Part shown: positions 30,538 to 58,270 of the stretch, in pieces | Layout of the letters: every line of letters starts with the position of its first letter | Numbering within the stretch: position 1 is the first letter of the stretch | DNA from: Oricola cellulosilytica | GTDB taxonomy: Bacteria; Pseudomonadota; Alphaproteobacteria; Rhizobiales; Rhizobiaceae | Direction of reading: 5' to 3' | DNA length: 64,000 nucleotides | Assembly (NCBI RefSeq): GCF_019966575.1 | Contig: NZ_JAINFK010000007.1 | Location: 62,001-126,000, forward strand | Translations under genes and position numbers: made by a program | The notes under the pieces: model-generated | The model's input: only the letters and a program-made list of their open reading frames with translations | What the model was told of the DNA's origin: nothing | The model's database searches: none

Positions 30538-30674
30538 TCCGTGGCTCCTCCATTCAGCAAGCATAGCCTGTAACGACCGGAATTTATTGCCATACATTCT
30601 TATCCATGGCGATCTTTTGGGAGGTTGTTCCGAAATTCACGTTATAGTGGTACAGCTTCACGAAAATCTGTCGG

Positions 30675-40680: not shown

Positions 40681-41919
40681 TCAGGCGAAGGCCTGCAGAC
40701 CGGTCTGTCCGCGCCCGAGGATCAGGGCGTGCACATCGTGCGTGCCCTCGTAGGTGTTGACCGCCTCGAGGTTCATGACGTGGCGGATCACGCCGTATTC
40801 GTCGCTGACGCCGTTGCCGCCATGCATGTCGCGGGACGCGCGGGCGATATCCAGCGCCTTGCCGCAATTGTTGCGCTTCATGAGGCTGATCAGTTCGGCA
40901 GGCGCGGTATGATCGTCCATCATGCGGCCGAGCCGCACGCAGCCCTGAAGGCCGAGCGCGATTTCGGTCTGCATGTCGGCCAGTTTTTTCTGGATGAGCT
41001 GCGTTGCAGCAAGGGGCTTGCCGAACTGCTTGCGGTCCATCGTATAGCTGCGCGCAGCATGCCAGCACGCCTCGGCCGCACCCATCGCGCCCCACGAGAT
41101 GCCGTAACGGGCGCGGTTGAGACAACCGAAGGGCCCCGCAAGCCCCGCGACGTGGGGCAGGAGGTTGTCTTCAGGAACGAATACCTCGTCCATCTGGATC
41201 ATGCCGGTTGTCGAAGCGCGAAGGGAGAACTTGCCCTCGATCTTCGGGGCGGCCAGACCTTTCATGCCCTTTTCGAGAATGAACCCCTTGATCTTCCCGT
41301 CATGGGCCTCCGACTTCGCCCAGATCACGAAGACGTCGGCAATCGGGGAATTGGTGATCCAGTTCTTGGCGCCGGAGAGCAGGAAGCCGCCGTCGACACT
41401 CTTCGCCCGGGTGACCATCGATCCGGGATCGGACCCGTGGTCGGGTTCGGTTAGCCCGAAACAGCCGACCCACTCACCGCTCGCCAGTTTCGGAAGGTAT
41501 TTGAGGCGTTGCCGTTCGGTACCGTAGGCGAAGATCGGATGCATGACGAGCGAAGACTGCACGGACATGGCCGATCTGTAGCCGCTGTCGATCCGCTCGA
41601 CCTCCCGAGCGACGAGGCCGTAGGAGACGTAGTTAGCGCCGACGCCGCCATAGGCTTCCGGAATGGTCGAGCCAAGGAGCCCCTGTTCGCCCATCTCGGA
41701 CATGATTTCACGATGGAAGATTTCCTGGCGATTGGCCTCAATGACGCGCGGCGCCAGCTTGTCCTGACAATAGGCGTGCGCGGCATCGCGGATCATCCGC
41801 TCTTCCTCGCCGAGCTGTTCTTCGAGCAGGAACGGATCGTCCCAGATAAGGGGTGCCGGTTTCGCGCGGGCCTCTTCGGGGGTTGCGGGGCTTGTGCGAT
41901 CGACAGCGTTGTTCAACAT
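40681..41919 (-). CDS. gcdH: Glutaryl-CoA dehydrogenase
   Basis: A 412-residue acyl-CoA dehydrogenase with '[16 protein letters not shown]', '[16 protein letters not shown]' and the catalytic glutamate in '[16 protein letters not shown]'. The overall sequence and the ending '[11 protein letters not shown]' match GcdH, which oxidises and decarboxylates glutaryl-CoA to crotonyl-CoA using FAD. ATG 41919 has GGGAGG about 10 bases upstream. It faces the anthranilyl-CoA operon. Glutaryl-CoA would be a plausible late product of that pathway, which may explain the pairing (inference). Confidence 0.88.
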
Positions 41920-42032
41920 TGACACGGACCTCCCTCGGTGACGGCCCATCGATAGGGCGTCTTTGCGGAAGCTTCAACCACAAAAATTTTATGCTTGAAA
42001 TATAGCGGCGTTCTGCGTAGTTTTTCCGGCAG

Positions 42033-42075: not shown

Positions 42076-44370
42076 ATGCGCATCGCGTGCCTGGGGGGCG
42101 GACCCGCCGGCCTTTATTTCGGGATATCCATGAAGCTGCGCCGGCCGGACGCCGAGATCGTCGTGATCGAGCGCAACAAGCCCGACGATACATTCGGCTG
42201 GGGGGTCGTCCTGTCCGACGAGACGCTCGACAATCTCGCCGTCAACGACCGGGCAAGCGCCGACGCCATTCGCGAGCATTTCGCGTACTGGGACGACATC
42301 GCGGTGCACTATCGCGGCGAGCGCATCGTCTCGACCGGACACGGATTTTGCGGCATCGGACGGATGCGGCTGCTGGCCCTGCTGCAAGCGCGGGCGCGCG
42401 AGCTCGGCGTGGAACTGCGTTTCGAGACCGAGGTTGAAAGCGCGGCCCGCTACGCCGACGAATTCGACCTGGTGGTCGCGTCAGACGGCCTGAATTCCAA
42501 GACGCGCACCGAATTCGCCGACGCGTTCAAGCCGGATATCGACGTCCGGGCCTGCAAGTTCGTCTGGCTCGGCACGCGTCAGAAGTTCGACGATGCGTTC
42601 ACCTTTATCTTCGAAGAGACCGACAAGGGCTGGGTCTGGGCGCATGCCTACCAGTTCGACGATGACACAGCGACGTTCATCGTGGAAACCGACGAGGCGA
42701 CGTGGAAGGCCTACGGTTTCGGCGAGATGTCGCAGGAGGAGTCGATTGCCGTCTGCGAGGAGATTTTCAAGGATCACCTCGGCGGGCACTCGCTGATGAC
42801 CAACGCCAGGCATATTCGCGGCTCGGCCTGGATCAACTTTCCGCGCGTGCTTTGCGAAAACTGGAGCCACAAGAATATCGTCCTGATGGGCGATGCCGCG
42901 GCTTCGGCGCATTTCTCGATCGGCTCGGGAACGAAACTGGCGCTCGAGAGCGCGATCGCGCTTGCCGAGTATGTTCACACCGAACCGTCGCTCGAAGCCG
43001 CATTCGCAAAATACGAGGACGAGCGGCGGCTCGAAGTTCTGCGGCTTCAGTCCGCCGCCCGAAATTCGCTCGAATGGTTCGAGGACATTCACCGGTATCT
43101 GAATCTCGATCCCGTGCAGTTCAATTACTCGCTGCTCACGCGCTCGCAACGCATCAGTCATGAAAACCTCCGCCTGCGCGACCCCGAATGGTTGGGCTCG
43201 GCCGAGAAGTGGTTCCAGGAAAGAGCCGGCGTCAGTACCAACGCACCCACACGCGCTCCGATGTTCGCACCGTTCAAACTGCGCGACATGGAGGTGAAGA
43301 ACCGCGTCGTGGTCTCGCCCATGGCGCAGTACAAGGCGGTCGACGGCTGCCCCACCGACTGGCACCTGATTCACTATGGAGAACGCGCCAAAGGCGGCGC
43401 GGGTCTCGTCTATACCGAGATGACTTGCGTATCGCGGGAAGGGCGGATCACGCCCGGCTGTACGGGCCTTTATTCCAGCGCTCACGAGGCAGCCTGGAAA
43501 CGCCTTACGGCCTTTGTGCACTCGGAAACGAGCGCAAAGATCTGCTGCCAGATCGGGCATTCCGGCCGCAAGGGCTCGACCCAGCTTGGCTGGGAGACAA
43601 TGGATGCGCCGCTCAAATACGGGAATTGGGCCACGATGTCGGCCTCGGCGATCGCCTGGTCGGACGACATCCCGGCACCGCGCGAAATGACGCGCGCAGA
43701 GATGGATGCGGTTCGAGACCAGTTCGTGGCCGCAGCGGAGATGGCCGAGCGGTGCGGCTTCGACATGATCGAACTGCATGCGGCCCATGGTTATCTGATT
43801 TCGTCGTTCATCTCGCCGCTGTCGAACCAGCGCAGTGACGAATACGGCGGAAGTCTCGATAACCGGATGCGTTACCCGCTCGAGGTGTTCTCCGCCATGC
43901 GTGCCGCCTGGCCTGCTGAAAAGCCGATGTCGGTGCGTATTTCCGCGTCCGATTGGGCCGGTGACGATGGCGTGACCCCGCCCGAGGCGGTCGAGATCGC
44001 CCGCCTGTTCGAAGAAGCGGGGGCCGATATCATCGATGTATCGGCAGGACAGACATCGGTTCGGGCGAAGCCTGTTTACGGGCGGATGTTTCAAACACCG
44101 TTTTCCGACCGCATTCGCAATGAGGCAGGCATCAGGACGATGGCGGTGGGTAACATCTACGAGCCCGATCACGTCAATTCCATACTGATGGCAGGCCGGG
44201 CCGACCTGGTATGTCTCGCGCGGCCGCATCTCGCCGACCCGTACTGGACGCTCCGCGCCGGCGCGGCGATCGGCGACCGTCACGAGGAGTGGCCGCTGCC
44301 GTATTTGCCAGGCCGCGATCAGGCCTGGCGGCTCGCCGATCGCGAGGCGGAAACGGCGGGGCGGATCTGA
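42076..44370 (+). CDS. 2-Aminobenzoyl-CoA monooxygenase/reductase-type fusion (salicylyl-CoA 5-hydroxylase family)
   Basis: A 764-residue fusion. Residues 1 to about 385 form an FAD aromatic monooxygenase ('[14 protein letters not shown]', '[15 protein letters not shown]'). From about residue 393 there is an old-yellow-enzyme domain ('[22 protein letters not shown]', '[10 protein letters not shown]', '[13 protein letters not shown]' near 567). This architecture is that of Azoarcus evansii 2-aminobenzoyl-CoA monooxygenase/reductase, which hydroxylates and partly reduces the ring of anthranilyl-CoA, and of salicylyl-CoA 5-hydroxylase. An aryl-CoA ligase and tryptophan dioxygenase in the operon, and the absence of gentisate dioxygenase, favour anthranilate. 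ATG 42076 has GGGAGG 4 bases upstream. It is first of the operon and coupled by TGATG. Confidence 0.8.
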
Positions 44371-45125
44371 TGCAACTTCAGGACAAGCACGCAATCGTGA
44401 CGGGTGGCGGAAGCGGCGTCGGCGCGGCAATCGCCACATTGTTCGCCGAGGCGGGCGCGCGGGTCACCGTAATGGGCCGCCGTGAGGAACCCTTGCGCGC
44501 GCTGGCTGCGCAGGAGCGTATATCATGGCAGGTCTGTGATGTGACCGATAGCGAGGCTGTTGTGTCGGCCTTTGATGCGGCGCGCGCGCAGAACGGTACG
44601 CTCGACATCGTTATCGCCAATGCCGGCGAGGCCGTCAGTAAGCCATTTGTGAAAATGGTCTCATCCGATCTGGATGCGGCTCTTTCCGTGAACCTTGTCG
44701 GGACGTTCAACTGCTTCAAGGCCGCGCTAGCTGACATGAGCACAGCAGGGTGGGGCCGGTTGATAGCGATTGCGTCGATCGCTGGCCTGAAGGGCTACCC
44801 ATATGTTTCCGGATACTGCGCCGCGAAACACGGTGTCGTCGGGCTGACTCGGGGACTTGCGGTCGAACTCGGCAAATCGGGAATTACGGTGAATGCGATC
44901 TGTCCCGGTTTCATCGAAACGCCCATGCTGGAGCGGTCAATAGCCAATATCGTGTCGAAGACCGGCAAGAGTCAGGAAGAAGCTTCCAATTTGCTCAAAT
45001 CGGGAAATCCGCAAGGGCGATTCATTCAACCGGTGGAGGTAGCGGAAGCCGCGCTCTGGCTGTGCTCCGAAGGTGCGCGCTCGGTCAATGGCCACGCGCT
45101 CTCCGTCTCGGGGGGAGAAATATGA
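44370..45125 (+). CDS. Short-chain dehydrogenase/reductase
   Basis: A 251-residue classical SDR. The NAD(P) motif 'TGGGSGVG' lies near residues 11-18. The 'NAG' motif is present, with catalytic Ser in 'IASIAGLKG' and 'YCAAK' (Tyr-x3-Lys), followed by 'NAICPGFIETPML'. Located directly after the monooxygenase/reductase, it probably oxidises or reduces a hydroxy/oxo intermediate of the CoA pathway, a 3-hydroxyacyl-CoA dehydrogenase role (inference). Its start and stop overlap both neighbours. Confidence 0.85.
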   Translation: MQLQDKHAIVTGGGSGVGAAIATLFAEAGARVTVMGRREEPLRALAAQERISWQVCDVTDSEAVVSAFDAARAQNGTLDIVIANAGEAVSKPFVKMVSSDLDAALSVNLVGTFNCFKAALADMSTAGWGRLIAIASIAGLKGYPYVSGYCAAKHGVVGLTRGLAVELGKSGITVNAICPGFIETPMLERSIANIVSKTGKSQEEASNLLKSGNPQGRFIQPVEVAEAALWLCSEGARSVNGHALSVSGGEI

Positions 45126-45604
45126 CGCGAGAAGCGACCATGGCCGCGGACGAGGCACCGTCAAAAGCGCGATTGCGGCTTTGGCTGCGGCTGCTCAAGG
45201 TGACGCGCAAAGTTGAAGGTCGGCTGAGGGAGCGTCTGCGCACCGAGTTCGCGACGACGCTGCCGAGGTTCGACGTGATGTCCGCGCTCAATCGCCATGA
45301 CCAGGGCCTGAAGATGAGCGAGCTGTCCGGTGTCCTGAAGGTATCGAATGGCAACGTGACCGGCATCGTCGACCGACTCGTGGAGGAGGGGCTCGTGATC
45401 CGGGGGGCGGTTGAAGGAGACCGGCGCGCGAATCTTGTGCGGCTGACCCGGAAGGGGCACGAACATTTCGCGGTGCAGGCACGCGAGCACGAAGCCTGGA
45501 TCGACGAGATGCTTGCGGACATGCCCGCGAATGAGAGCGAAAATCTCGCCCATCGTCTCGACGCGCTCGTTCAGGCCCTCGAAGAGCCGGAGAGCAAGAA
45601 ATGA
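45122..45604 (+). CDS. MarR-family transcriptional regulator
   Basis: A 160-residue MarR protein with a winged helix ('[30 protein letters not shown]' and wing '[14 protein letters not shown]'). It is embedded in the operon with ATGA overlaps on both sides. MarR regulators of aromatic CoA pathways commonly sense the aryl-CoA thioester, so it probably represses this operon until anthranilyl-CoA forms. The ligand is inferred. Confidence 0.85.
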
Positions 45605-46398
45605 AAAGCCCGAAACACTTCCTGCTAGAGATCGATGAGGGGGTCGCAACAGTCCGGCTGGATCGTCCGGAGCGGAAGAATCCGCTCACGTTCGAGAGCT
45701 ATGACGAACTTGGCCGCTGGTTTCGTGGTCTTGCCCACGAGGATCACATCAACGCGGTGGTGTTCGCCTCGAATGGCGGCAACTTCTCTTCAGGTGGCGA
45801 TGTGCACGACATCATCGGTCCGCTGACCGCTATGTCGATGAAGGACCTGCTGCGGTTCACGCGCATGACGGGCGAACTCGTCAAGGCGATGATAAATTGC
45901 GGCAAGCCGATTATTGCCGCTGTCGACGGCGTTTGCGTCGGTGCCGGAGCGATTATCGCCATGGCTTCCGATCTGCGGATCGCGACACCGGAGGCGAAGA
46001 CCGCCTTTCTGTTCACCCGGGTCGGGCTGGCGGGCTGCGATATGGGCGCATGTGCGATCCTGCCCCGGATCATAGGACAGGGCCGCGCAGCGGAACTGCT
46101 CTATACCGGCCGCGCGATGAATGCGCAGGAAGGCGAGACGTGGGGGTTCTTCAACCGCCTCGTCCCACAGGAGGAGTTGCGGGCGAACGCCATGGAACTC
46201 GCCAAGCGCATCGCCGCCGGTCCCAATTTCGCGCACATGATGACGAAGACCATGCTGGCGCAGGAGTGGTCGATGTCCATCGAACAGGCGATCGAGGCGG
46301 AGGCTCAGGCGCAAGCGATCTGCATGAAGACAGGCGATTTCCTCCGGGCCTACGAGGCCTTCGTCGCCAAAGAAAAACCCGTGTTCGGGGGCAATTGA
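45601..46398 (+). CDS. Enoyl-CoA hydratase/isomerase family protein
   Basis: A 265-residue crotonase-fold protein. Oxyanion-hole segments are visible in '[17 protein letters not shown]' and '[23 protein letters not shown]'; '[21 protein letters not shown]' supplies the active-site region. It probably hydrates or hydrolytically opens a ring/enoyl-CoA intermediate of the pathway. Overlapping start and stop codons tie it to marR and the acyl-CoA dehydrogenase gene. Confidence 0.85.
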
Positions 46399-47561
46399 TG
46401 GCCGACAGGAGCTTTCATGGCTGGCCGTTCTTCGAGCGCCGGCATCGCGAACTGGTCGCGGACGTGGACGCGTGGGCGTCCGCTAACCTGTCGGCGATCG
46501 ACCATGCCGACACCGATACGGCATGCCGGGCACTTGTCGGAATGCTGGGGAAGGGGGGATGGCTAAAATACAGCGCGGTTGCGCCCGATGATGAAAGCGC
46601 AACGCTCGACGTACGGTCGCTTTGCCTGATCCGCGAAACACTGGCGCGGCATGACGGCCTTGCCGATTTTGCGTTTGCCATGCAGGGGCTCGGCACCGGC
46701 GCGCTCTCGCTTTTCGGAACACCGGCCCAGAAATCGGAGTGGTTGACGAAGACGCGGGCTGGCGAGGCGATCTCCGCCTTCGCACTGACCGAGCCGCAAT
46801 CCGGTTCGGATGTCGCCAATTCGACCATGAGCGCGACGCAGGAAGGCGATACCCTCATCCTCAATGGTGAGAAGACCTGGATTTCGAACGGCGGAATCGC
46901 CGATGTCTATACGGTATTCGCTCGAACAGGCGAAGGACCGGGCGCGAGGGGTCTCTCGGCGTTTGTCGTGCCCGCGGGAATTCCCGGATTCGAGATTGCC
47001 GAGAGGCTCGAAACCATCGCGCCGCATCCGCTGGCGCGCCTGCGGTTCTCCGATTGCCGTATTCCCAAATCGGCGCTGATCGGGGAGCGCGGACAGGGCT
47101 TCAAGATCGCCATGGCGGTGCTCGACGTTTTCCGTTCGACGGTTGCCGCCGCGGCGCTCGGCTTTGCCCGCCGCGCGATGGACGTGTCGATCGCGCGGGT
47201 GTCGGAGCGCAAGGTGCAGGGCGCACCGCTAGCCGATTACCAGATGGTGCAGGGGCACATCGCGGACATGGCCGTTGACATCGATGCGGCCGCGCTGCTC
47301 GTTCATCGCGCCGCGTGGACGAAAGACAGCGGCGCCCCCCGTGTCACGCGCGAAGCGGCCATGGCAAAACTGTTCGCTACCGAGCAGGCCCAGAAGGTGA
47401 TCGACATGGCAGTGCAACTGCACGGCGGCGACGGCGTGCGCCACGGTCATGTCGTGGAACGCCTTTATCGGGAGATCCGCGCGCTGCGCATCTATGAAGG
47501 CGCCTCCGATGTGCAGAAGGTCGTGATCGCCCGTCAGGTGATGGGAGCGCATCATGTCTGA
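46398..47561 (+). CDS. Acyl-CoA dehydrogenase family protein
   Basis: A 387-residue FAD-dependent acyl-CoA dehydrogenase with '[15 protein letters not shown]', '[15 protein letters not shown]' and the catalytic base in '[17 protein letters not shown]'. The C-terminal half has '[18 protein letters not shown]'. It would oxidise a CoA-bound intermediate after ring cleavage. It starts by TGATG coupling after the hydratase and overlaps kynA by 8 bases. Confidence 0.87.
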
Positions 47562-48375
47562 CACCGACGGTGCACGGACCGACTTCCGGGAAACGATGTC
47601 GTACGGCGACTATCTGCACCTCGATGCCGTGCTCAACGCCCAGACGCCGCTCAGCGAAGCGCCCGATGAAATGCTGTTCATCGTGCAGCATCAGACCTCC
47701 GAATTGTGGATGCGGCTGATGATCCACGAACTCAACGGCGCACGCGAGGCGATCGCGGGCGATCACCTACCGGAAGCCTTCAAACTGCTGGCGCGCGTCA
47801 GCCGGATCATGGAGCAGTTGAACAGCGCGTGGGACGTGCTGCGGACCATGACGCCCTCGGATTACACGCGGTTTCGCGAAGCGCTCGGCATGTCGTCCGG
47901 CTTCCAGTCCTTTCAGTATCGGATGATCGAATTCATTCTCGGGAACCGCAACGTCGCGATGATAGAGCCGCATGCGCACAGGCCTTCGGATGTAGCGGCG
48001 CTCGAACGGGAACTGGACCGACCCAGCCTTTATGTGGAAGCGCTTCGCCTCGCTGCGAGGCGCGGAATGAAAGTCCCGCCGAAAGTCCTCGATGTGGCCA
48101 GCCGCGAGCCTCACCGGGCCGTGGAAGCGGTGACGCAGATGTGGGCCGAGGTTTATCGGGACACGGCCACGCACTGGACGCTCTACGAACTGGCCGAAAA
48201 ACTCGTCGACCTGGAAGATTACTTCCGTCGCTGGCGTTTCAATCACGTCACGACTGTCGAACGGGTGATCGGCTTCAAGAGAGGCACAGGGGGCACTGCC
48301 GGCGTGAGCTATCTTCGCAAGATGCTCGAAGTCGAGCTTTTCCCGGAGCTTTGGGCTGTCAGGACGGAGTTGTAA
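47554..48375 (+). CDS. kynA: Tryptophan 2,3-dioxygenase
   Basis: A 273-residue heme dioxygenase. The N-terminal '[19 protein letters not shown]' contains His46, the substrate-contacting histidine. The axial heme ligand is His231 in '[16 protein letters not shown]', with '[14 protein letters not shown]' following. It opens the indole ring of tryptophan to N-formylkynurenine. The gene overlaps the acyl-CoA dehydrogenase gene, placing tryptophan breakdown in the same mRNA as anthranilate-CoA catabolism. The formamidase-like gene is at 511; kynureninase is not in the window. Confidence 0.95.
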
Positions 48376-48379
48376 GAGG

Positions 48380-50002
48380 ATGGAAAAGCTCGGCCCGTCA
48401 GCGCATATCGACACCTTTTCAAGGGACAACCTCCCGCCTGTCGAACAGTGGCCCGATCTGCTGATCGACCGGTTTGAGTATCCGGAACGACTCAATGCCG
48501 GGGTCGAACTGACCGACCGCCTTGTCGAAAAGGGGTTCGGCGATCACACCGCGTTGATCGGCAATGGCCGGCGCCGAACCTACAAGGAACTCGCCGACTG
48601 GACCAACCGGCTGGCGCACGCCCTAGTGGACGATCTTGGCGTGAAGCCGGGCAACCGGATACTCATCAGGTCCGCGAACAATCCGGCCATGGTTGCCTGC
48701 TGGCTTGCAGCCACCAAGGCCGGCGCCGTGGTCGTGAACACGATGCCCATGTTGCGCGCCGGCGAACTTGCGAAGATCGTCGACAAGGCGGAAATCTCGC
48801 ACGCGCTTTGCGACACGCGACTGATGGACGAGATGACCTCCTGTGCGAAGGGCAGCGCCTTTCTGAAGACCGTGGCCGGTTTCGACGGGACGTCCAATCA
48901 TGACGCCGAGCTGGATCGGCTGGCGCTTGAAAAGCCGGTCAACTTCGAGGCAGTCGACACCGGCCGGGACGATGTCGCACTGCTGGGTTTCACATCCGGC
49001 ACGACCGGCTCGCCAAAGGCAACGATGCATTTCCACCGCGATCTGCTGATCATTGCCGATGGTTATGCGAAGGAAGTCCTCCGCGTGACGCCGGACGATG
49101 TCTTCGTCGGTTCGCCACCGCTGGCCTTTACCTTCGGGCTCGGTGGACTGGCGATCTTCCCCTTGCGGTTCGGCGCGGCCGCGACACTGCTTGAAAACGC
49201 ATCCCCACCCAACATGATCGAGATCATCGAGAAGTACAACGCGACCATCTGTTTCACCGCGCCCACTGCCTATCGGGCAATGCTGGCGGCGATGGATGCG
49301 GGGGCCAACCTGTCGTCGCTTCGCGCGGCCGTTTCGGCGGGCGAGACCTTGCCCGCACCTGTCTATGAGGAGTGGATGCGAAAAACCGGGAAGCCGATGC
49401 TGGACGGAATCGGCTCGACCGAGATGCTGCACATTTTCGTCTCCAACCGGTTCGACGATCACCGGCCTGCCTGCACCGGGAAGCCGGTGACCGGATACGA
49501 AGCCAAAATAATCGGCGAGGACGGGGGTGTACTGCCTCCGGGCGAGGTCGGGCGGCTGGCCGTGCGCGGCCCGACGGGCTGCCGCTATCTCTCGGACGAG
49601 CGGCAGAAAAACTATGTTCTCGATGGCTGGAACATCACCGGCGACGCTTTTTCGATGGACGCGGACGGATATTTCCATTTCGCGGCGCGCAACGACGACA
49701 TGATTATCTCGTCCGGCTACAACATCGCCGGTCCGGAGGTCGAGGCGGCGCTGCTGTCGCACGACGCCGTTGCCGAATGCGCCGTGATCGGCTTCCCTGA
49801 CGAGCAGCGCGGCGCGATCGTGCAGGCGCACATCGTTCTGAGGCACGGCAACAATGCGTCGGACGCGCTGGCGAAAGCGCTGCAGGAGCACGTGAAGAAC
49901 ACCATCGCGCCGTTCAAATATCCGCGCTCGGTCGTGTTCTGCGACGCGCTGCCGAAAACGCAGACCGGCAAGATCCAGCGGTTCCGGTTGAAGGATTCAT
50001 GA
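48380..50002 (+). CDS. Aryl-CoA ligase, probable 2-aminobenzoate (anthranilate)-CoA ligase
   Basis: A 540-residue AMP-forming ligase of the benzoate-CoA ligase family. The P-loop is 'LGFTSGTTGSPKATMHFHRD', then 'GIGSTEMLHIFVSNR', the hinge 'DDMIISSGYNIAGPEVEAALL' and the catalytic Lys in 'KTQTGKIQRFRLKD'. It activates an aromatic acid with CoA and ATP. The operon (kynA upstream, aminobenzoyl-CoA monooxygenase-type fusion first) indicates anthranilate. A GAGG directly after the kynA stop serves as its ribosome site. Confidence 0.83.
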   Translation: MEKLGPSAHIDTFSRDNLPPVEQWPDLLIDRFEYPERLNAGVELTDRLVEKGFGDHTALIGNGRRRTYKELADWTNRLAHALVDDLGVKPGNRILIRSANNPAMVACWLAATKAGAVVVNTMPMLRAGELAKIVDKAEISHALCDTRLMDEMTSCAKGSAFLKTVAGFDGTSNHDAELDRLALEKPVNFEAVDTGRDDVALLGFTSGTTGSPKATMHFHRDLLIIADGYAKEVLRVTPDDVFVGSPPLAFTFGLGGLAIFPLRFGAAATLLENASPPNMIEIIEKYNATICFTAPTAYRAMLAAMDAGANLSSLRAAVSAGETLPAPVYEEWMRKTGKPMLDGIGSTEMLHIFVSNRFDDHRPACTGKPVTGYEAKIIGEDGGVLPPGEVGRLAVRGPTGCRYLSDERQKNYVLDGWNITGDAFSMDADGYFHFAARNDDMIISSGYNIAGPEVEAALLSHDAVAECAVIGFPDEQRGAIVQAHIVLRHGNNASDALAKALQEHVKNTIAPFKYPRSVVFCDALPKTQTGKIQRFRLKDS

Positions 50003-50101
50003 TGCCGGGAGGAGTTTTCCGATATTGCAGTTCCGTTGTGGGCAAGTGGCGCCAACTCCGATACGTTCTAACTGATTGAGTCCAAACAGGGAGGTAACTC
50101 G

Positions 50102-51241
50102 ATGAATAAACTTGGAAAAATCGCACTGGCCGGGGTGGCCGCACTGTGGGCGGGAACCGCGCTCGCCGATGGCGTCAAGGTGGGAATGATTACCACACTG
50201 TCCGGTGGAGGAGCCGGTCTCGGGATTGACGTTCGGGATGGGTTCCTGCTCGCCGTCAAGCAGTCCGGAAACAGCGATATCGAGGTCGTGGTCGAGGACG
50301 ACCAGCGCAAGCCGGAGATCGCGGTTCAACTGGCCGACAAGATGATCCAGTCCGAGAAGGTCGACGTCCTCACGGGCATCATCTGGTCCAATCTGGCGAT
50401 GGCCGTGGTGCCCTCGGCAACGGCGCAGGGAAAATTCTACCTGTCGCCCAATGCCGGCCCGTCGCAGCTTGCCGGCGAGGGCTGTCACGAGAATTACTTC
50501 AACGTCGCGTGGCAGAACGACAATCTGCATGAAGGCGCCGGAGCGTACGCCAAGGACGCCGGCTTCAAGAACACGTTCATTCTCGCGCCGAACTATCCGG
50601 CTGGCACGGACGCGCTCGCCGGTTACAAGAGGTTCTACGAGGGCGAACTGGCCGGCGAGGTCTATACCAAGCTCGGGCAGACCGATTACGCGGCCGAGAT
50701 CGCGCAAATCCGTGCGTCGGGGGCAGACAGCGTGTTCTTCTTCCTGCCGGGCGGAATGGGGATTTCGTTCCTGAAGCAGTATTCCGACAGCGGTATCGAC
50801 CTGCCAGTGGTTGGGCCGGCATTCAGTTTCGACCAGGGTATTCTGCAGGCCGTCGGGGATGCGGCGCTCGGCATCAAGAACACCTCCCAGTGGTCGAAGG
50901 ATATCGACAATCCCGCCAACAACGCTTTCGTCGAAAGCTTTCAGGCCGAATATGGCCGCCTGCCGTCGCTCTACGCCAGCCAGGGATTCGATACCGCCAA
51001 TCTGCTGCTCAGCGCGATGGGCAAGGCCGATATCGATGATGCCGACGCTTTCCGCGCCGCATTGAAAGAGGCCGATTTCGACAGCGTCCGGGGCGATTTC
51101 GAATTCGGCCCGAACAATCATCCGATTCAGGACATCTACGTGCGCGAAGTCATTAAGGAAGGCGACGTGCTGACGAACAAGATCGTCGGCGTTGCGCTCG
51201 AGGATCGCGGCGACGCCTACGCCGAGAAGTGCAAGATGTGA
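50102..51241 (+). CDS. Branched-chain-amino-acid-type ABC transporter binding protein
   Basis: A 379-residue periplasmic protein with signal peptide MNKLGKIALAGVAALWAGTALA and the LivJ/K-type fold ('VKVGMITTLSGGGAGLGIDVRDGFLLAV', 'LSPNAGPSQLAGEGCHENYF'). In aromatic operons this family often binds aryl acids rather than leucine. Here anthranilate, kynurenine or tryptophan would make sense (inference). It has GGGAGG upstream, and a 99-base spacer from the ligase gene may hold a secondary promoter. Confidence 0.88.
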   Translation: MNKLGKIALAGVAALWAGTALADGVKVGMITTLSGGGAGLGIDVRDGFLLAVKQSGNSDIEVVVEDDQRKPEIAVQLADKMIQSEKVDVLTGIIWSNLAMAVVPSATAQGKFYLSPNAGPSQLAGEGCHENYFNVAWQNDNLHEGAGAYAKDAGFKNTFILAPNYPAGTDALAGYKRFYEGELAGEVYTKLGQTDYAAEIAQIRASGADSVFFFLPGGMGISFLKQYSDSGIDLPVVGPAFSFDQGILQAVGDAALGIKNTSQWSKDIDNPANNAFVESFQAEYGRLPSLYASQGFDTANLLLSAMGKADIDDADAFRAALKEADFDSVRGDFEFGPNNHPIQDIYVREVIKEGDVLTNKIVGVALEDRGDAYAEKCKM

Positions 51242-51293
51242 CCAGCGTTCGGTCCGGGCGGCTCAGCGGCCGCCCGGTCCACGGGCAAAATCA

Positions 51294-52211
51294 ATGACAA
51301 TCATTCTTTTGATAGAGCAGGTCCTTAACGGGCTTCAGTTCGGTGTGATGCTGTTTCTCATGGCCGCCGGATTGACGCTCGTGTTCGGTGTGATGGGATT
51401 GATCAATCTCGCCCATGGCTCTCTCTACATGGTCGGTGCGTTCGCCGCCGCTGCAGTGGCAGGCGCGACGGGCTCTTTTCTGCTCGCGATGGCGGCGGCC
51501 CTGGGCGCTGCGGCGATTGCCGGCGTCATCGTCGAGATGCTGGTCATTCGCCGGCTTTACGACCGGGACCATCTCGATCAGGTTCTGGCGACCTTTGCGC
51601 TGATCCTGATCTTCTCCGAAGGAACGCGGTGGATCTTCGGTTCCTTTCCGCTCTATCTGAACATTCCACCCTACCTGAGTGGACCGATCACGCTGCCAGG
51701 TGACATCCAGTACCCGTTGTACAGATTGGTGATTATCGGTGTCGGCTTGCTGGTCGCGGCCGGCCTCTTCCTGCTGATTTCCCGAACGCGGCTTGGAATC
51801 CGCATCCGGGCCGGCGAGAGCGACAGGGAGATGATCGCCGCGCTGGGTGTCAATATCTCCGTGCTTTACACGATCGTCTTCGCGCTCGGCGCGGCGCTGG
51901 CAGGGCTCGCAGGAGCGCTCGTAGGGGCGATCCAGTCGGTACAGGTCGGCATGGGTGAACCGGTGCTCATCCTCGCCTTTGTCGTCATCGTCATCGGCGG
52001 CATCGGCTCCATCACAGGTGCGCTCGTCGGCTCTCTACTGGTTGGTTTGACCGACACGCTGGGCCGCACGCTTTTGCCAGTTCTGTTCGGAACATTCATG
52101 GAGGCATCTGCGGCGACGACCGTCGGCGCGGCCATCGCATCGATGCTGATCTATATCCTCATGGCGGTTGTTCTCATCTTCCGTCCCACCGGACTTTATG
52201 GCGCGAGATGA
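51294..52211 (+). CDS. Liv-type ABC transporter permease (LivH family)
   Basis: A 305-residue membrane protein with 8 or so TM helices and the LivH signature 'GLTLVFGVMGLINLAHGSLYMVGAF', plus 'VILAFVVIVIGGIGSITGALVGSLLVG'. It forms the channel with the LivM protein and starts at ATG 51294. The stop overlaps the LivM-type start. Confidence 0.92.
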   Translation: MTIILLIEQVLNGLQFGVMLFLMAAGLTLVFGVMGLINLAHGSLYMVGAFAAAAVAGATGSFLLAMAAALGAAAIAGVIVEMLVIRRLYDRDHLDQVLATFALILIFSEGTRWIFGSFPLYLNIPPYLSGPITLPGDIQYPLYRLVIIGVGLLVAAGLFLLISRTRLGIRIRAGESDREMIAALGVNISVLYTIVFALGAALAGLAGALVGAIQSVQVGMGEPVLILAFVVIVIGGIGSITGALVGSLLVGLTDTLGRTLLPVLFGTFMEASAATTVGAAIASMLIYILMAVVLIFRPTGLYGAR

Positions 52212-53194
52212 TGAGGCGTGAACAAATCCTCAACGGCGCCGTACTTCTCGGGCTCATAGCCGTGCCGCTGTGGGCATGGTCAAGTGGCGAACCGTTCATC
52301 ATCACGCTGGCAACGAAGGTGGCCGTCCTGGGGCTGGCCGGCGTCGGTCTGAACATCGCGCTTGGCACAGGAGGACTCGTCAGCCTGGGACATGCCGCGT
52401 TTTTCGGGATCGGCGGTTATGCGATGGGCATACTTGCCAGCCACGCGCAGCAATATGTTCCGCTATTTGAGTGGCCGCTGCTGGTGGAAGGCACGAAGTC
52501 GATGCCGGTCATCTGGCTTGTTGCGATCGTCTTCTCAGGGCTTGCCGCGCTCCTGATCGGTGCGCTCAGCCTGCGTACGTCGGGTGTCTACTTTATCATG
52601 ATCACCCTGGCCTTTGCGCAGATGCTCTATTATTTCGCGATCAGTTGGCCCGCTTATGGCGGTGAGGACGGGATGGCGATTTACGTGCGCAACTCGTTTC
52701 CAGGTCTCAACACGCTCGACCCGATCCAGTTTTTCGCGATCACCTTCGTCATCTTGTGCATGACACTGTGGTTCAATGCCCGGTTGGTGCGCTCCCCCTT
52801 TGGCACCGCGCTTGCCGCAGCGCGCCAAAATGCGGAGCGCGTCGAAGCGGTTGGCATCGATCCCTACAAGCTGAGGCTCGCGGCCTTCGTGATTTCCGGC
52901 ATGATCACCGGACTTGCGGGTGCGCTGTTTGCGGACCTCAACCGTTTCGTCAGTCCAACCATGTTTGGTTGGCATTTGAGCGGTGAACTGATCGTTTTCG
53001 TAATTCTTGGCGGCACCGGGCGTTTGCTTGGTCCTGTCGTCGGCGCCGCGATCTTCATCACTCTGGAGCATGTGCTCGGGGGAATCAGCGAGTATTGGCA
53101 GATCTTCCTCGGCGTGTTGCTGCTGGGGGTGGTGCTGGTCGCGCGGGGCGGGGTCATTGCCGTTATTGCCGGAAAAGGGGTCGCCCATGACTGA
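52208..53194 (+). CDS. Liv-type ABC transporter permease (LivM family)
   Basis: A 328-residue permease with the LivM signature 'LNIALGTGGLVSLGHAAFFGIGGYAMG' and late 'VFVILGGTGRLLGPVVGAAIF'. It has about 9-10 TM helices. It overlaps the LivH-type gene by 4 bases and the LivG-type gene by 8. Confidence 0.92.
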   Translation: MMRREQILNGAVLLGLIAVPLWAWSSGEPFIITLATKVAVLGLAGVGLNIALGTGGLVSLGHAAFFGIGGYAMGILASHAQQYVPLFEWPLLVEGTKSMPVIWLVAIVFSGLAALLIGALSLRTSGVYFIMITLAFAQMLYYFAISWPAYGGEDGMAIYVRNSFPGLNTLDPIQFFAITFVILCMTLWFNARLVRSPFGTALAAARQNAERVEAVGIDPYKLRLAAFVISGMITGLAGALFADLNRFVSPTMFGWHLSGELIVFVILGGTGRLLGPVVGAAIFITLEHVLGGISEYWQIFLGVLLLGVVLVARGGVIAVIAGKGVAHD

Positions 53195-53942
53195 TGTGGT
53201 CCTCTCCTGTACGAAGATCAGCAAGGCGTTTGGCGCGCTTCAGGCGAGCAAGGACGTGTCGCTGGATCTTCAGGCGGGCGAGATCCATGCCCTGATCGGA
53301 CCAAACGGCGCCGGAAAATCGACGCTCATCCGCCAGATAAGCGGGGCGATGAAGCCGGATCGTGGGACAGTTCACTTTCTCGGCCACGATGTCACCAGGC
53401 TCTCGGCCATCGAGAGGGCCCGGCTGGGACTTGGCCGAAGCTTTCAAATATCATCGGTCATTCCCGACTTCACAGTGCTGCAAAATGTTGCGCTCGCTGT
53501 TCTCGGCGATGAGGGGAACTCGTTTCACTTCTTTCGTGATCTCCTGAAGGGCCGACCGACGGTCGAGCGGGCCGAAACCTGCATTGCTCGCGTCGGACTT
53601 GAGGATCGCCGGGCCGTCCGCGCTGCCGATCTCGCCCATGGCGAGCGGCGCCGACTGGAAATCGCCACGGCGCTGGCGCTCGAACCGAGGGCGTTTCTGC
53701 TGGACGAACCGATGGCCGGGATGGGCGCGGAAGGTGCGTCGGAAATGACCAGACTACTGGACACGTTGCGCCACGAGGCGCCGATACTTCTCATCGAGCA
53801 CGACATGGATGCGGTCTTCGCGCTGGCCAACCGGATTAGCGTCCTCGTCTACGGCGAAATTATCGCGACGGGCACGTCGGACGAGATTCGGAGCAACGCG
53901 GAGGTGCGCCGCGCCTATTTGGGCGAGGAGGAAACCGCATGA
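53187..53942 (+). CDS. Liv-type ABC transporter ATP-binding protein (LivG family)
   Basis: A 251-residue ATPase with Walker A 'GPNGAGKST', the LivG-typical 'GLGRSFQ', signature 'DLAHGERRRLEIATAL' and Walker B 'AFLLDEPMAGMG', then 'LIEHDMDAVFALANR'. It energises import by the LivHM permeases. ATG 53187 overlaps the LivM-type gene. Confidence 0.93.
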   Translation: MTDVVLSCTKISKAFGALQASKDVSLDLQAGEIHALIGPNGAGKSTLIRQISGAMKPDRGTVHFLGHDVTRLSAIERARLGLGRSFQISSVIPDFTVLQNVALAVLGDEGNSFHFFRDLLKGRPTVERAETCIARVGLEDRRAVRAADLAHGERRRLEIATALALEPRAFLLDEPMAGMGAEGASEMTRLLDTLRHEAPILLIEHDMDAVFALANRISVLVYGEIIATGTSDEIRSNAEVRRAYLGEEETA

Positions 53943-54628
53943 CGCTTCTTTCGCTGAGCGACGTGACCGCATCCTACGGTGCGGCCCAGGCACTCTTCGG
54001 AGTCAGCCTGACCGTGGACGAAGGGGATGTCGTCGCCCTCATGGGGCGCAACGGCATGGGCAAGACGACGACCATCCGCACAATCTGCCGGATGATGCCG
54101 GTCAAGTCGGGCGAGGTTCGTTTCCGTGGCCGGTCGATCAACCGTGTTCCTTCGCACCGCGTAGCGCGAATGGGAATCGGCCTTGTGCCGGAGGGACGGC
54201 GCTGCTTCGCGAACCTCACTGTGGAAGAGAACCTTGTTGCCGCCGCGCGCCCGGGAGACTGGAACTTTGCCTCGGTCTCCCAACTCTTTCCCCGGCTGGC
54301 AGAGCGTCATGACCAGATCGCGGCATCGCTGTCCGGTGGCGAACAGCAGATGCTGGCAATCGGCCGTGCGCTGATGACCAATCCTACGCTGCTTATCCTT
54401 GACGAGGCGACCGAGGGCCTCGCGCCGATCGTTCGCCAGGAAATCTGGAACGCCGTCCGAACCCTGAAGGCAACCAGCGCGCTCGCTATCCTGGTCGTAG
54501 ACAAGTCGATCAAAGAACTGGCGAGTGTTGCGGATCACGCGGTGATTATCGAGCGCGGCAAGGATGTCTGGACGGGACCCATATCCGGTATCTCGAAAGA
54601 TGTGACAGACCGGTTCCTCGGAGTTTAA
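53939..54628 (+). CDS. Liv-type ABC transporter ATP-binding protein (LivF family)
   Basis: A 229-residue ATPase with Walker A 'GRNGMGKTT', signature 'LSGGEQQMLAIGRALM' and Walker B 'LLILDEATEGLAP'. The usual LivF 'EH/DQ' switch region reads 'LVVDKSIKELASVAD', so the switch histidine seems replaced by Lys/Asp. It overlaps the LivG-type gene by ATGA. Confidence 0.92.
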   Translation: MTLLSLSDVTASYGAAQALFGVSLTVDEGDVVALMGRNGMGKTTTIRTICRMMPVKSGEVRFRGRSINRVPSHRVARMGIGLVPEGRRCFANLTVEENLVAAARPGDWNFASVSQLFPRLAERHDQIAASLSGGEQQMLAIGRALMTNPTLLILDEATEGLAPIVRQEIWNAVRTLKATSALAILVVDKSIKELASVADHAVIIERGKDVWTGPISGISKDVTDRFLGV

Positions 54629-54630
54629 CG

Positions 54631-55035
54631 ATGGCATTTACGGTCAGGCAGAAGGTGCTTTTCAGGCATTGCGATCCGGCGGGCATCGTCTTCTTTCCGC
54701 GTTATTTCGAGATGATCAACGACATTGCCGAGGCCTGGTTCAGTGAAAGTCTCAATGCACCCTGGCAGGAAATGCACCGGAACAACGGCGTTCCGACAGC
54801 TCAAATCGAGGTGGCTTTCAAGGCACCCAGCCGCCACGGCGACATGCTGGAGATCACGCTGACGCCGCAGAAGATCGGTGCAACCAGCGTTTCGCTGGAG
54901 TTCGTCGCGGCCGGCGCGGACGGCGTGCGGTTCATCGCCCGCTCAACGCTTGTCTACATCAACGCGCATGGGCGGCCGGAGCGCTGGCCCGATGAATTGC
55001 GCGAAAGAATTACCAGGGAAATCGGAGAAAGTTGA
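54631..55035 (+). CDS. Hot-dog acyl-CoA thioesterase (4-hydroxybenzoyl-CoA thioesterase-like)
   Basis: A 134-residue single hot-dog thioesterase with the catalytic Asp in 'FRHCDPAGIVFFPRYFEM', the 4HBT active-site signature. It hydrolyses an aryl- or acyl-CoA. In this operon it could release trapped CoA from side products such as dead-end anthranilyl-CoA derivatives. It is two bases after the LivF-type gene and overlaps ridA by one base. Confidence 0.83.
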   Translation: MAFTVRQKVLFRHCDPAGIVFFPRYFEMINDIAEAWFSESLNAPWQEMHRNNGVPTAQIEVAFKAPSRHGDMLEITLTPQKIGATSVSLEFVAAGADGVRFIARSTLVYINAHGRPERWPDELRERITREIGES

Positions 55036-55442
55036 TGCCGAACCGGATCATACATCCCGAGGGATGGCGTCCCGCGAAAGGCTACGCAAATGGCGTCCTT
55101 ACGGAAGATGGACGGCTGTTCATAGGTGGGCAGATCGGCTGGAATGCCAACCAGGTCTTCGAGAGCCACGACTTCATCGGCCAGATGGAGCAGACGCTTC
55201 GAAATATCGTGGCGGTTGTCGAGGCAGCGTCTGGCAAGATCGAGGACATTGTGCGGCTGACCTGGTATGTTACCGACAAGAGGGAATATGTCGCGCGTCA
55301 GAAAGAGGTCGGCGCGGCTTATCGCCGGGTTCTGGGCAAGCACTTTCCGGCGATGACCATGATCGTAGTTGCGGCGCTCGTCGAGGACGAGGCGCTGGTC
55401 GAAATCGAAGCGACAGCGGTCTTGCCGAAGCCCAAGATTTGA
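55035..55442 (+). CDS. RidA-family (YjgF/UK114) enamine/imine deaminase
   Basis: A 135-residue Rid protein (MPNRIIHPEGWRPAKGYANG) with 'LFIGGQIGWNA', 'MEQTLRNIVAVVEAA', 'IVRLTWYVTDK' and a late 'EIEATAVL'. RidA proteins hydrolyse reactive enamines/imines to ketones and ammonia. Its TGATG coupling at the end of the operon is notable: the known product of aminobenzoyl-CoA monooxygenase/reductase is an enamine-like 2-amino-5-oxo-cyclohexene-carboxyl-CoA. It may therefore be the deaminase of the pathway. The canonical RidA arginine in 'EIEA' context appears altered, so it may be an Rid subfamily member. Confidence 0.82.
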   Translation: MPNRIIHPEGWRPAKGYANGVLTEDGRLFIGGQIGWNANQVFESHDFIGQMEQTLRNIVAVVEAASGKIEDIVRLTWYVTDKREYVARQKEVGAAYRRVLGKHFPAMTMIVVAALVEDEALVEIEATAVLPKPKI

Positions 55443-55564: not shown

Positions 55565-56404
55565 TCAGGTCTGGGGCAGTGCACCGAACGCCCGGATGAC
55601 GGACCGTGCCGCGGCGAAGACCGGATCGTGGGTTTCATTCAGGATTGTCACGCGGTCAAAGCGGCTCGCATCGCGGTTGACGGCCTCGCGCAGCGCGGCG
55701 CCGAACGCCATGCGCAATTCCGTCCCGATGTTGAACTTGCAGATCTTCGTCGTTGTCGCTAGGCGCGTGCGCTGTTCGACCGGGATCCCCGATCCACCGT
55801 GGATCACAAGCGGGACATCGGTCACCGCTTCGATCGCGCGAATGCGCCCCTCGTCGAGCCCGCCCTGCTTGTCTTGCTGCAGATGCACGTTCCCGACGGA
55901 TATCGCCATCGCGTCCACGCCCGTTTCCCTGGCGAATACGGCCGCTTCACCCGGATGGGTGCCGTCGGAATTCTCGCCGCCTGCGTAACCGACAAAGCCG
56001 ATCTCGCCTTCGCAGGAGATGCCGGCCGCGTGCGCCATTTCGGCAATCTTCGCAGTCTCGTCGATGTTCTGACGCAGCGGCTTGCGCGATCCATCGTACA
56101 TCAGCGACGTGAAACCGCTGTCGAGCGCTTCGCGGCACTCCTCCAGCGTGTAGCCGTGATCGAGATGCGCGACGACCGGAACGGAAACGCTTTCGGCAAG
56201 GTGACGAAACATTTTTCCGAGAACGGGGAGGGGCGTATGCACCCTGCAGGACGGGCCGGCCTGGAGAATGACGGGAGCGTTTTCGGCCTCGGCCGCCAGG
56301 ACGAAGGCGCGCATGTCCTCCCAGCCGAGACAGACGAGCCCGCCCACCGCATATCCGCCCTTCAGCGCCGGTTGCAGCACGTCCGAAAGCGTCGCGAGAG
56401 TCAT
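55565..56404 (-). CDS. iolJ: Class II aldolase, probable 6-phospho-5-dehydro-2-deoxy-D-gluconate aldolase
   Basis: A 279-residue zinc aldolase. Metal-binding histidines are in 'VVAHLDHGYTLEECREAL', 'NVHLQQD' and 'VIHGGSGIP'; 'GEIGFVGYAGGENSDGTHP' is class II-specific. Sequence alone cannot separate fructose-bisphosphate from inositol-type aldolase. Overlap with iolB (ATGA) indicates the last inositol step, splitting DKGP to DHAP and malonate semialdehyde. ATG 56404 fits the family start; the longer upstream frame overlaps iolB. Confidence 0.82.
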   Translation of the reverse strand: MTLATLSDVLQPALKGGYAVGGLVCLGWEDMRAFVLAAEAENAPVILQAGPSCRVHTPLPVLGKMFRHLAESVSVPVVAHLDHGYTLEECREALDSGFTSLMYDGSRKPLRQNIDETAKIAEMAHAAGISCEGEIGFVGYAGGENSDGTHPGEAAVFARETGVDAMAISVGNVHLQQDKQGGLDEGRIRAIEAVTDVPLVIHGGSGIPVEQRTRLATTTKICKFNIGTELRMAFGAALREAVNRDASRFDRVTILNETHDPVFAAARSVIRAFGALPQT

Positions 56405-57243
56405 TTGAACTTGGCGACCATGTCTAGGATGCCCGGGATCGTGTGCAACTGATCTGCATGTGTCGGCTGGAAGTACTGTACCAACGAGCGCTGAGACAGC
56501 CCGCCGAGGATGGTGAAGTAGTACATCTCGTAACCGGGAAGAACGGCGCAGGGGTGATAACCCTTGTCGATGCAGATCGTCGAGCCGTCGACGATGTGAT
56601 AAGCGTCGCCCGGCTCGTTGTCCTGGCGCTGCAGCATCTGCAGGCCGGAACCGTAATTGGGTCGGAAACGGAAATTGTAGGTTTCGTCGTGGCGTGTTTC
56701 GTCGGGCAGGCGGTCCGTATCGTGCTTGTGCGACGGGAACCCCGACCACCCGCCTTGGCCAACCGTGTAGAGCTCGCTGACGAGAAGTCGACCCACCTTG
56801 CCGTGTTGCTTCTGGCCAAGAATGTGCTTGATCTTGCGATGCGTCTTGGTGTCGTCCGACCCGTACTGGACGAGATCCAACTCGTCCTTGCGGACCGCGA
56901 AGGCCTCCAGCACGCAGTCAAATTTCGCGCCCGCGATGAAGATTTCAGCCGTATCGGATCTGCAAACCATTTCGGCCTTCGCGCCGGTCGGAACGTAGAC
57001 GCCTTCCGGGTCGCCGTCCCAGACGTCGACGCCACGGCCTCCCAACGCTTCGGCCCGGAAGCGTTCGACGTTCACGTCGACCGTTCCCGTCGCCGGTACG
57101 ATACAGGTCTCGTAGCCCGGCACCGTGTACTCGAATGCCTCGTCCTTCTTCAGCTTGACGATATTGAAGTAGTTGAGCGGCACGCGATCATGATCGACGT
57201 CGACGATCGGAGTGTTGTTGTTTTCATAGGGTGGAATGTGCAT
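56401..57243 (-). CDS. iolB: 5-deoxy-glucuronate isomerase
   Basis: A 280-residue bicupin protein (MHIPPYENNNTPIVDVDHD) with metal-binding 'GFPSHKHDTD' and 'YHPCAVLPGYEMYYFTILGG'. It isomerises 5-deoxy-D-glucuronate to 5-dehydro-2-deoxy-gluconate in inositol breakdown. It overlaps iolC by 20 bases upstream and the aldolase gene by 4 downstream. Confidence 0.93.
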   Translation of the reverse strand: MHIPPYENNNTPIVDVDHDRVPLNYFNIVKLKKDEAFEYTVPGYETCIVPATGTVDVNVERFRAEALGGRGVDVWDGDPEGVYVPTGAKAEMVCRSDTAEIFIAGAKFDCVLEAFAVRKDELDLVQYGSDDTKTHRKIKHILGQKQHGKVGRLLVSELYTVGQGGWSGFPSHKHDTDRLPDETRHDETYNFRFRPNYGSGLQMLQRQDNEPGDAYHIVDGSTICIDKGYHPCAVLPGYEMYYFTILGGLSQRSLVQYFQPTHADQLHTIPGILDMVAKFK

Positions 57244-58246
57244 CGGGCTTCCTTTCACGTTCCCGCGGGCCCGCGTGATCCGCGAGAAAAGTGTCGAGTT
57301 CGGATCTGTCCGGCATCGCCGGGGCGCAGCCCGGTTTTCCGACGACAATCGCCGCGCAAGCTGAGCCGCGCAGGACCGATTCATGCAAAGCGAACCCGTC
57401 GGCAAGGGAAGCCATCAGCCCGGCCATGAAGCTGTCGCCCGCGCCGGTCGGCTTGAGCGCGGTAACGGGAAAAATTCCGGTGCGTGTCTCCTCGCCGCCG
57501 GCGAAGGTGATCGCGCCCTTGTCTCCCATCTTGTAGACGACGATGGTTGCCGCGGTTTCGGCAAGCTTTCGCGCATGGGCGAGGCCCTTGTCGATGCCGC
57601 CGGCCATGAAGCCGAATTCCTCGTCGTTGCCGACGATCACGTCACTCAATGCGCCGGCGCGCGACAGAACGTCGGCTGCCTCCTGCGGCGAGGGCCAGGA
57701 ATAGGGTCGGTAGTCCACATCAAAGATGATCGGCAGCCCGGCCTTTCTCGCGAGATCGAAGGCGTGAAAGGCGGCGTCGCGCGAGGGCTCGGCGGCAAAC
57801 ACCGTTCCCGCCGTGATCAGCGCGCCGTAGGCCGGGTAATCGACGGCCTCGACATCGGCGCGCGACATCTGAAAATCGGCCGCGCCGTTGCGATAAATGA
57901 CGCTTTGATGATCGTCGACGCGCGTTTCATAAACCGCCAGTGAATTGCGGAATTCCCCGCCGACGGAACGCACGGATTTGCGGTCAATGCCATAAGCGTC
58001 GAGCTGGTTCAGACAATAGCGGCCTATGGAATCGTCCGACACGCAGGTCACCAGCGCTGCCTTGCCGCCGAGCTTGACGATGCCGGCGGCGATGTTTGCG
58101 GACGAGCCGCCCATCGCGACGGTCATTTCGGCGGCGTCTTCGGTTCTCACACCGGCCGGTTGCGGCGACAGATCCATTCCGACGCGGCCGATGACGAGAA
58201 AGTCGTTCCGTGCGATACCGTCGATCACATGCGCAGATGCGGTCAT
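57224..58246 (-). CDS. iolC: 5-dehydro-2-deoxygluconokinase
   Basis: A 340-residue PfkB-family kinase with 'MGGSSANIAAGIVKLGG' and the catalytic 'KPTGAGDSFMAGLM'. It phosphorylates 5-dehydro-2-deoxygluconate. The inositol context (iolD upstream, iolB downstream with overlap) secures the assignment over other ribokinase-type enzymes. The C-terminus 'GPRERERKPDAHSTL' is read through the iolB start. Confidence 0.93.
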   Translation of the reverse strand: MTASAHVIDGIARNDFLVIGRVGMDLSPQPAGVRTEDAAEMTVAMGGSSANIAAGIVKLGGKAALVTCVSDDSIGRYCLNQLDAYGIDRKSVRSVGGEFRNSLAVYETRVDDHQSVIYRNGAADFQMSRADVEAVDYPAYGALITAGTVFAAEPSRDAAFHAFDLARKAGLPIIFDVDYRPYSWPSPQEAADVLSRAGALSDVIVGNDEEFGFMAGGIDKGLAHARKLAETAATIVVYKMGDKGAITFAGGEETRTGIFPVTALKPTGAGDSFMAGLMASLADGFALHESVLRGSACAAIVVGKPGCAPAMPDRSELDTFLADHAGPRERERKPDAHSTL

Positions 58247-58270
58247 GCCCGGCCCTCGGCGATCTTCATC

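Follow-up and report, generated by a model that had tools for sequence, protein, structure and literature searches.

Among the Rid family proteins, RutC and AmnE deaminate conjugated enamines, 3-aminoacrylate and 2-aminomuconate, respectively (PMC8113886, PMC6742747). Here we describe a Rid family protein that is encoded at positions 55035-55442 of a 64,000-nucleotide stretch of the Oricola cellulosilytica genome (hereinafter, the window; contig NZ_JAINFK010000007.1, positions 62,001 to 126,000 of the forward strand), within an apparent operon for anthranilate breakdown that also encodes a fused monooxygenase/reductase (hereinafter, the fusion). The interpretation that we favor, with a probability of roughly 0.6, is that this protein is dedicated to the pathway, belongs to a distinct Rid branch devoid of the catalytic arginine and functions as a beta-enaminoacyl-coenzyme A (CoA) deaminase. 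RutC, which belongs to the Escherichia coli uracil (Rut) pathway, is likewise encoded in an operon, and its substrate is a beta-enamino acid, that is, the free-acid analogue of the enamine proposed for the window Rid; unlike the RutC substrate, the latter would be a cyclic CoA thioester. The RutC model is matched weakly by 36 of 38 linked Rid proteins, but RutC has and needs Arg104 (PMC8113886), whereas the window Rid contains methionine in this position and scores 39.1 bits against a cut-off of 169.1 (TIGR03610), so that it falls outside the RutC subfamily. The 2-aminomuconate deaminases of the AmnE/NbaF type also act on a conjugated enamine, in the breakdown of aromatic amines (PMC6742747), but their substrate is a free diacid formed after ring opening, and Arg117 is among their conserved cleft residues. 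These enzymes are distant from the window Rid, which is connected to 6izh at a profile E value of 7e-6 only and has methionine instead of the arginine. The archetypal RidA (2-iminobutanoate/2-iminopropanoate deaminase) shares with the window protein the fold (template modeling (TM) score of about 0.83), the length, Glu120 and Tyr17 but carries the catalytic Arg105 in the position of Met107, and the score of the window Rid against the respective model, TIGR00004, is 56.3 bits vs the cut-off of 106.25.

At the level of gene content, the closest counterparts are the abm clusters of Azoarcus evansii, which have in common with the window operon the ligase, the fusion, the beta-oxidation genes, a MarR family regulator and a binding protein; tryptophan 2,3-dioxygenase (TDO), a full ABC importer and a thioesterase are encoded in the window operon beyond this shared set. 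The abstract of the 2001 description of the Azoarcus cluster by Schuehle and colleagues is said to list a 'putative translation inhibitor protein', which was reportedly assigned no role; 'translation inhibitor protein' is an old name of the Rid family. Accordingly, it is not the presence of the gene in the cluster that is new but the existence of a dedicated Rid branch that lacks the arginine and has a near-obligate partner.

The Rid protein is a core partner of the fusion enzyme, as indicated by their co-occurrence across genomes, the physical linkage of the genes and the same linkage in three further phyla. Orthologues of the window Rid (E value threshold of 1.1e-29 or lower) were identified in 131 of the 134 genomes that encode a full-length fusion, the window genome included, vs one of the 153 genomes without the fusion (Fisher p of about 1e-77, uncorrected for phylogeny). 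The contrast is the same in each of the two non-overlapping fusion-positive sets (69/70 and 62/64) and in the fusion-negative sets (1/80 and, in the second control set, picked as larger genomes, 0/73), and the contig that carries Rid in the lone fusion-negative genome ends inside a fusion gene. The orthologues are separated by a sharp gap from the next-best Rid proteins, whose E values are no lower than 1e-23 in a few families and exceed 1e-14 elsewhere. Conversely, we selected 49 genomes by their Rid gene, most of them for having no visible intact fusion within 8 kb, and 47 of these encode the fusion somewhere; relatives of Leisingera and Phaeobacter are among them. Together, these two tests lead us to reject a chance association. 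Within the genus of the window genome, four genomes possess both Rid and the fusion, and two possess neither. An ordinary RidA involved in general imine detoxification can be rejected as well, considering that the arginine is missing and that genomes without the fusion lack the orthologue despite encoding other Rid proteins.

The Rid gene is located within 30 kb of 117 of the 138 fusion genes, at a median distance of 5.1 kb, and is downstream and on the same strand in 101 cases; most of the fusion loci without Rid within 30 kb are contig ends. The preliminary description of this locus had proposed Rid as a deaminase of the aminobenzoyl-CoA pathway: the assignment to the pathway is borne out by these observations, whereas the deamination step itself is put forward here conditionally. 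In seven relatives from the Leisingera/Phaeobacter group, Rid is found outside the operon, and the fusion is encoded elsewhere in the genome. In one of these (L171), the neighbors of Rid look like pyrimidine catabolism genes, as judged from names read from the sequences, with no family search. Another one (L174) is a contig labelled Nocardioides marinus that encodes a Rid 70% identical to that of the window and resembles the Leisingera loci; this genome is probably mislabelled or contaminated.

Outside the Proteobacteria, Rid and fusion homologues are encoded no more than 10 kb apart in Deinococcus (Deinococcota), in Arthrobacter, Rhodococcus and Tsukamurella (Actinomycetota) and in the haloarchaea Haladaptatus, Natronococcus and Natronosalvus. 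In the phylogenetic tree, all fusion-linked Rid proteins, both proteobacterial ones and those from other phyla, form a single clade (support 97/89) that leaves out E. coli RidA and most of the paralogues from the same genomes. The evolutionary distances among the Rid proteins correlate with those among the fusions (r = 0.49, compared to 0.12 for the best of 200 permutations); the respective values are 0.79 for the crotonase and 0.77 for the acyl-CoA dehydrogenase. On three haloarchaeal plasmids, the fusion homologue adjoins genes for an LLM-class flavin oxidoreductase, Rid, an acyl-CoA dehydrogenase and a MaoC-type hydratase, which suggests an archaeal version of the pathway.

The membership of the window protein in the Rid/YjgF/YER057c/UK114 family is shown by the match to PF01042 (E value of 1.5e-20; 73.8 bits vs the cut-off of 27.3), and the AlphaFold2 model (predicted local distance difference test score of 95.9) is a confident Rid monomer for which all top structural matches are Rid proteins. 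Methionine occupies the position equivalent to Arg105 of E. coli RidA in all 116 linked orthologues and in all 80 named loci, and glutamate occupies that of Glu120 (Glu123 in the window protein), without exception, in the same two sets. Among seven loci from other phyla, methionine is found in six and leucine in one, and the glutamate is retained. Additionally, Pro8, Trp11, Tyr17, Gln50, Thr76 and Tyr85 show no variation among the proteobacterial proteins, and Trp36 and Trp77 are nearly invariant. The arginine is also absent from the Rid4-Rid7 subfamilies (tryptophan in Rid4 and Rid7, variable in Rid5 and Rid6), which are defined by CDD models. Because Arg105, which is needed by all Rid deaminases tested so far, is replaced by Met107, the premise of the preliminary description that RidA proteins hydrolyze enamines does not carry over to this protein.

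The pathway itself most likely starts from anthranilate. The fusion matches NF006101 over its whole length (1299 bits, residues 2-762), and NCBI names this family bifunctional salicylyl-CoA 5-hydroxylase/oxidoreductase, a name that seems misleading where the fusion is surrounded by TDO and kynureninase. The window operon combines the fusion with the ligase, crotonase, acyl-CoA dehydrogenase and TDO, as expected of the 2-aminobenzoyl-CoA route, and kynureninase is encoded elsewhere in the same genome. Among 70 fusion-positive genomes, 23 encode kynureninase at a distance of at most 30 kb from the fusion, compared to about 1.3% expected, and gentisate dioxygenase, which is absent from the window genome, is found near the fusion in only two. 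Hence anthranilate appears to be the substrate, and the nitrogen-free salicylyl-CoA is disfavored. In one related locus, the gene order is SDR-MarR-crotonase-acyl-CoA dehydrogenase-ligase-TDO-kynureninase-Rid (SDR, short-chain dehydrogenase/reductase), with the fusion gene located elsewhere in that genome. The amino-CoA ester made by the fusion is reported to be unstable below pH 5, and extracts of Arthrobacter Rue61a grown on anthranilate contained a C7H8O4-CoA ester, tentatively a cyclohexanedione-carboxyl-CoA, that was not seen on other substrates (PMC3534580). This composition is exactly the one expected from hydrolysis of the enamine and so supports deamination before ring opening, although such support is suggestive only because the extracts were quenched in formic acid, where spontaneous hydrolysis could also yield this ester. 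Given that the fusion product is unstable only under acidic conditions, a deaminating enzyme is likely to be needed at neutral pH.

In the reaction that we propose, the fusion would supply a stable, vinylogous enamine CoA thioester as the Rid substrate. Protonation of the enamine on carbon would yield an iminium, which could then be attacked by a water molecule positioned by the invariant Glu123, resulting in a beta-ketoacyl-CoA that a crotonase-type hydrolase could open. The arginine of Rid proteins binds the substrate carboxylate (PMC4433059), and the substrates of the tested Rid proteins are free acids, as far as the cited Rid literature shows (PMC4433059, PMC5619798, PMC8113886, PMC9714295). 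The substrate proposed here has no carboxylate; a thioester would occupy that place and methionine would replace the carboxylate-holding arginine, so that the loss of the arginine, with the glutamate kept, is consistent with adaptation of a Rid to CoA esters and might be what a dedicated beta-enaminoacyl-CoA deaminase looks like. Whether the bacterial and haloarchaeal branch constitutes a new kind of Rid enzyme, which would deaminate CoA-thioester beta-enamines without the arginine and thereby fill the nitrogen-release step, the arginine being a mark of carboxylate substrates and not of deaminase activity itself, is in our assessment an evenly balanced question. Currently, Rid deaminase activity is predicted by the presence of the arginine, and the arginine-less Rid proteins are without known function (PMC4433059, PMC9714295). 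With an arginine-less branch, a near-obligate partner and one obvious candidate substrate, this rule becomes testable by a single enzyme assay. In the aerobic breakdown of anthranilate via 2-aminobenzoyl-CoA, the lower part has been poorly understood, and a 2022 reconstruction of catabolic pathways omitted this route of tryptophan degradation because too little was known about it (PMC9007349). With the deamination step settled, a common pathway that leads from tryptophan into central metabolism would come closer to completion, and many 'RidA family protein' annotations could be corrected.

Several lines of evidence weigh against deaminase activity of the window Rid or against its dedication to the pathway. 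Tested Rid proteins without the arginine show no deaminase activity (PMC4433059, PMC5619798, PMC8113886, PMC9714295), so that the family name alone does not justify this assignment, and the R104A mutant of RutC has lost 3-aminoacrylate deamination (PMC8113886, PMC9714295). In the cited Rid literature, none of the Rid proteins is reported to act on a CoA ester. Three fusion-positive genomes lack the Rid orthologue; in one of these, a different arginine-less Rid, perhaps a replacement, is encoded about 14 kb from the fusion. Finally, Met107 had to be rejected as a unique signature of the pathway: among 16 paralogues, most of them from fusion-positive genomes, the Arg105 position is occupied by Ser, Ala or Arg but, in two off-pathway proteins, by Met. 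The latter are encoded next to sugar-transport/sugar ABC genes (L241:5782-6204) and to genes for an acyl-CoA ligase, a luciferase-like monooxygenase and a thiolase (L242:5665-6090), neighborhoods that give no clear second function for Met-type Rids.

Three other explanations, all of them unlikely, have to be considered. In the first, the amino group would be eliminated by the crotonase family enzyme through addition of water at the amino-bearing carbon of the enoyl-CoA, with Rid as an accessory; the precedent comes from related ring hydratases that remove fluoride by water addition (PMC5742626), and the crotonase, present in 98 of the 109 loci, shows a higher distance correlation with the fusion than Rid (0.79 vs 0.49), which counts in favor of this possibility. 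Nevertheless, such a reaction would leave the near-absolute coupling between Rid and the fusion unexplained. Moreover, Rid persists in genomes where it is no longer part of the operon, and in four loci that encode the fusion, SDR and Rid, the 20 kb examined contain neither a related crotonase nor a related acyl-CoA dehydrogenase, with distant copies possible. Slightly less probable is a damage control role, in the manner of RutC and other Rid proteins, whereby deamination is spontaneous or catalyzed by another enzyme and Rid accelerates it or clears a reactive side product. Indeed, the Rid reactions studied so far also proceed uncatalyzed, and growth on uridine does not require rutC (PMC8113886, PMC9714295). 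However, the fusion product is a resonance-stabilized enamine with the acid-limited instability described above, for which a slow uncatalyzed rate is expected (PMC3534580), and a dispensable protector would not usually co-occur with the fusion as tightly as observed here (about 98%).

The least probable of the three, by a narrow margin, is that Rid is not a deaminase at all and instead performs other chemistry or binding on a CoA ester, for example tautomerization, C-C ring hydrolysis, ligand sensing or holding the reactive product. No activity is known for the arginine-less Rid4-Rid7 proteins (PMC4433059), and the Rid folds include chorismatases (cited in PMC4433059), all of which would be compatible with such functions. 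Against this stand the retention of Glu120, Tyr17 and Gln49 (E. coli numbering; Glu123, Tyr17 and Gln50 in the window) and a deamination step in the pathway that has no assigned enzyme and for which the operon encodes no other obvious candidate to release the amine.

The Rid open reading frame starts with ATG and ends with TGA, exactly at the coordinates given in the preliminary description, and GGAGAAAG is located directly upstream of its ATG. The stop codon of the thioesterase gene and the Rid start codon overlap by one base (TGATG), which makes translational coupling of the two genes plausible from the sequence. Rid is the last of 14 genes (42076-55442), all on the forward strand and spaced by -8 to +4 bp, with larger gaps (99 and 52 bp) only around the substrate-binding protein gene (Table 1); the next downstream gene is on the opposite strand, and a promoter/terminator scan detected no terminator-like site between it and Rid. 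The overlap had been offered as an argument for the role of Rid; although real, it adds little alone because the gene immediately 5' of Rid differs among genomes (thioesterase in 36, ligase in 32, acyl-CoA dehydrogenase in 22, ABC ATPase in 12 and TDO in 4 of 115 loci). Whatever its type, this upstream neighbor is nearly always within 150 bp. The thioesterase was rejected as an essential general partner considering that it is recognized in only 40 of the 109 related loci.

Table 1. Genes of the apparent anthranilate-breakdown operon in the window. Fractions refer to 109 related loci that contain both the fusion and Rid.
Feature	Coordinates	Strand	Remarks
FAD monooxygenase + old yellow enzyme fusion, 2-aminobenzoyl-CoA monooxygenase/reductase type	42076..44370	+	presumed enamine source
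SDR dehydrogenase	44370..45125	+	present in 101/109
MarR family regulator	45122..45604	+	present in 96/109; assigned by its place in the operon and by similarity to genes annotated as MarR in R. pomeroyi and Deinococcus
Crotonase/enoyl-CoA hydratase family protein	45601..46398	+	NF006107; candidate ring-opening or hydrating enzyme; 98/109
Acyl-CoA dehydrogenase	46398..47561	+	family match
Tryptophan 2,3-dioxygenase (TDO)	47554..48375	+	TIGR03036, above cut-off; indicates anthranilate substrate
Benzoate-CoA-ligase-type enzyme, presumed 2-aminobenzoate-CoA ligase	48380..50002	+	family match
ABC importer: substrate-binding protein, two permeases, two ATPases	50102..54628	+	relatives annotated as parts of a branched-chain amino acid ABC transporter
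4HBT-type thioesterase	54631..55035	+	recognized by similarity in 40/109
Rid family protein, 135 aa, Met107 (Arg105 position), Glu123 (Glu120 position)	55035..55442	+	proposed beta-enaminoacyl-CoA deaminase

Adjacent to the fusion gene and divergent from it is a gene (40681-41949, reverse strand) that reads as a glutaryl-CoA dehydrogenase and is found beside the fusion in 9 of the 109 related loci; such a neighbor would fit a C7 route ending in glutaryl-CoA. Further upstream, the window encodes a thiolase (31306-32508) and a fused protein similar to indolepyruvate ferredoxin oxidoreductase (27082-30597), and the Tsukamurella cluster is flanked by similar oxidoreductase genes. Downstream of the operon, the genes at 56401-60142 (reverse strand) read like inositol catabolism genes (iolB, iolC and iolD), unrelated to the operon.
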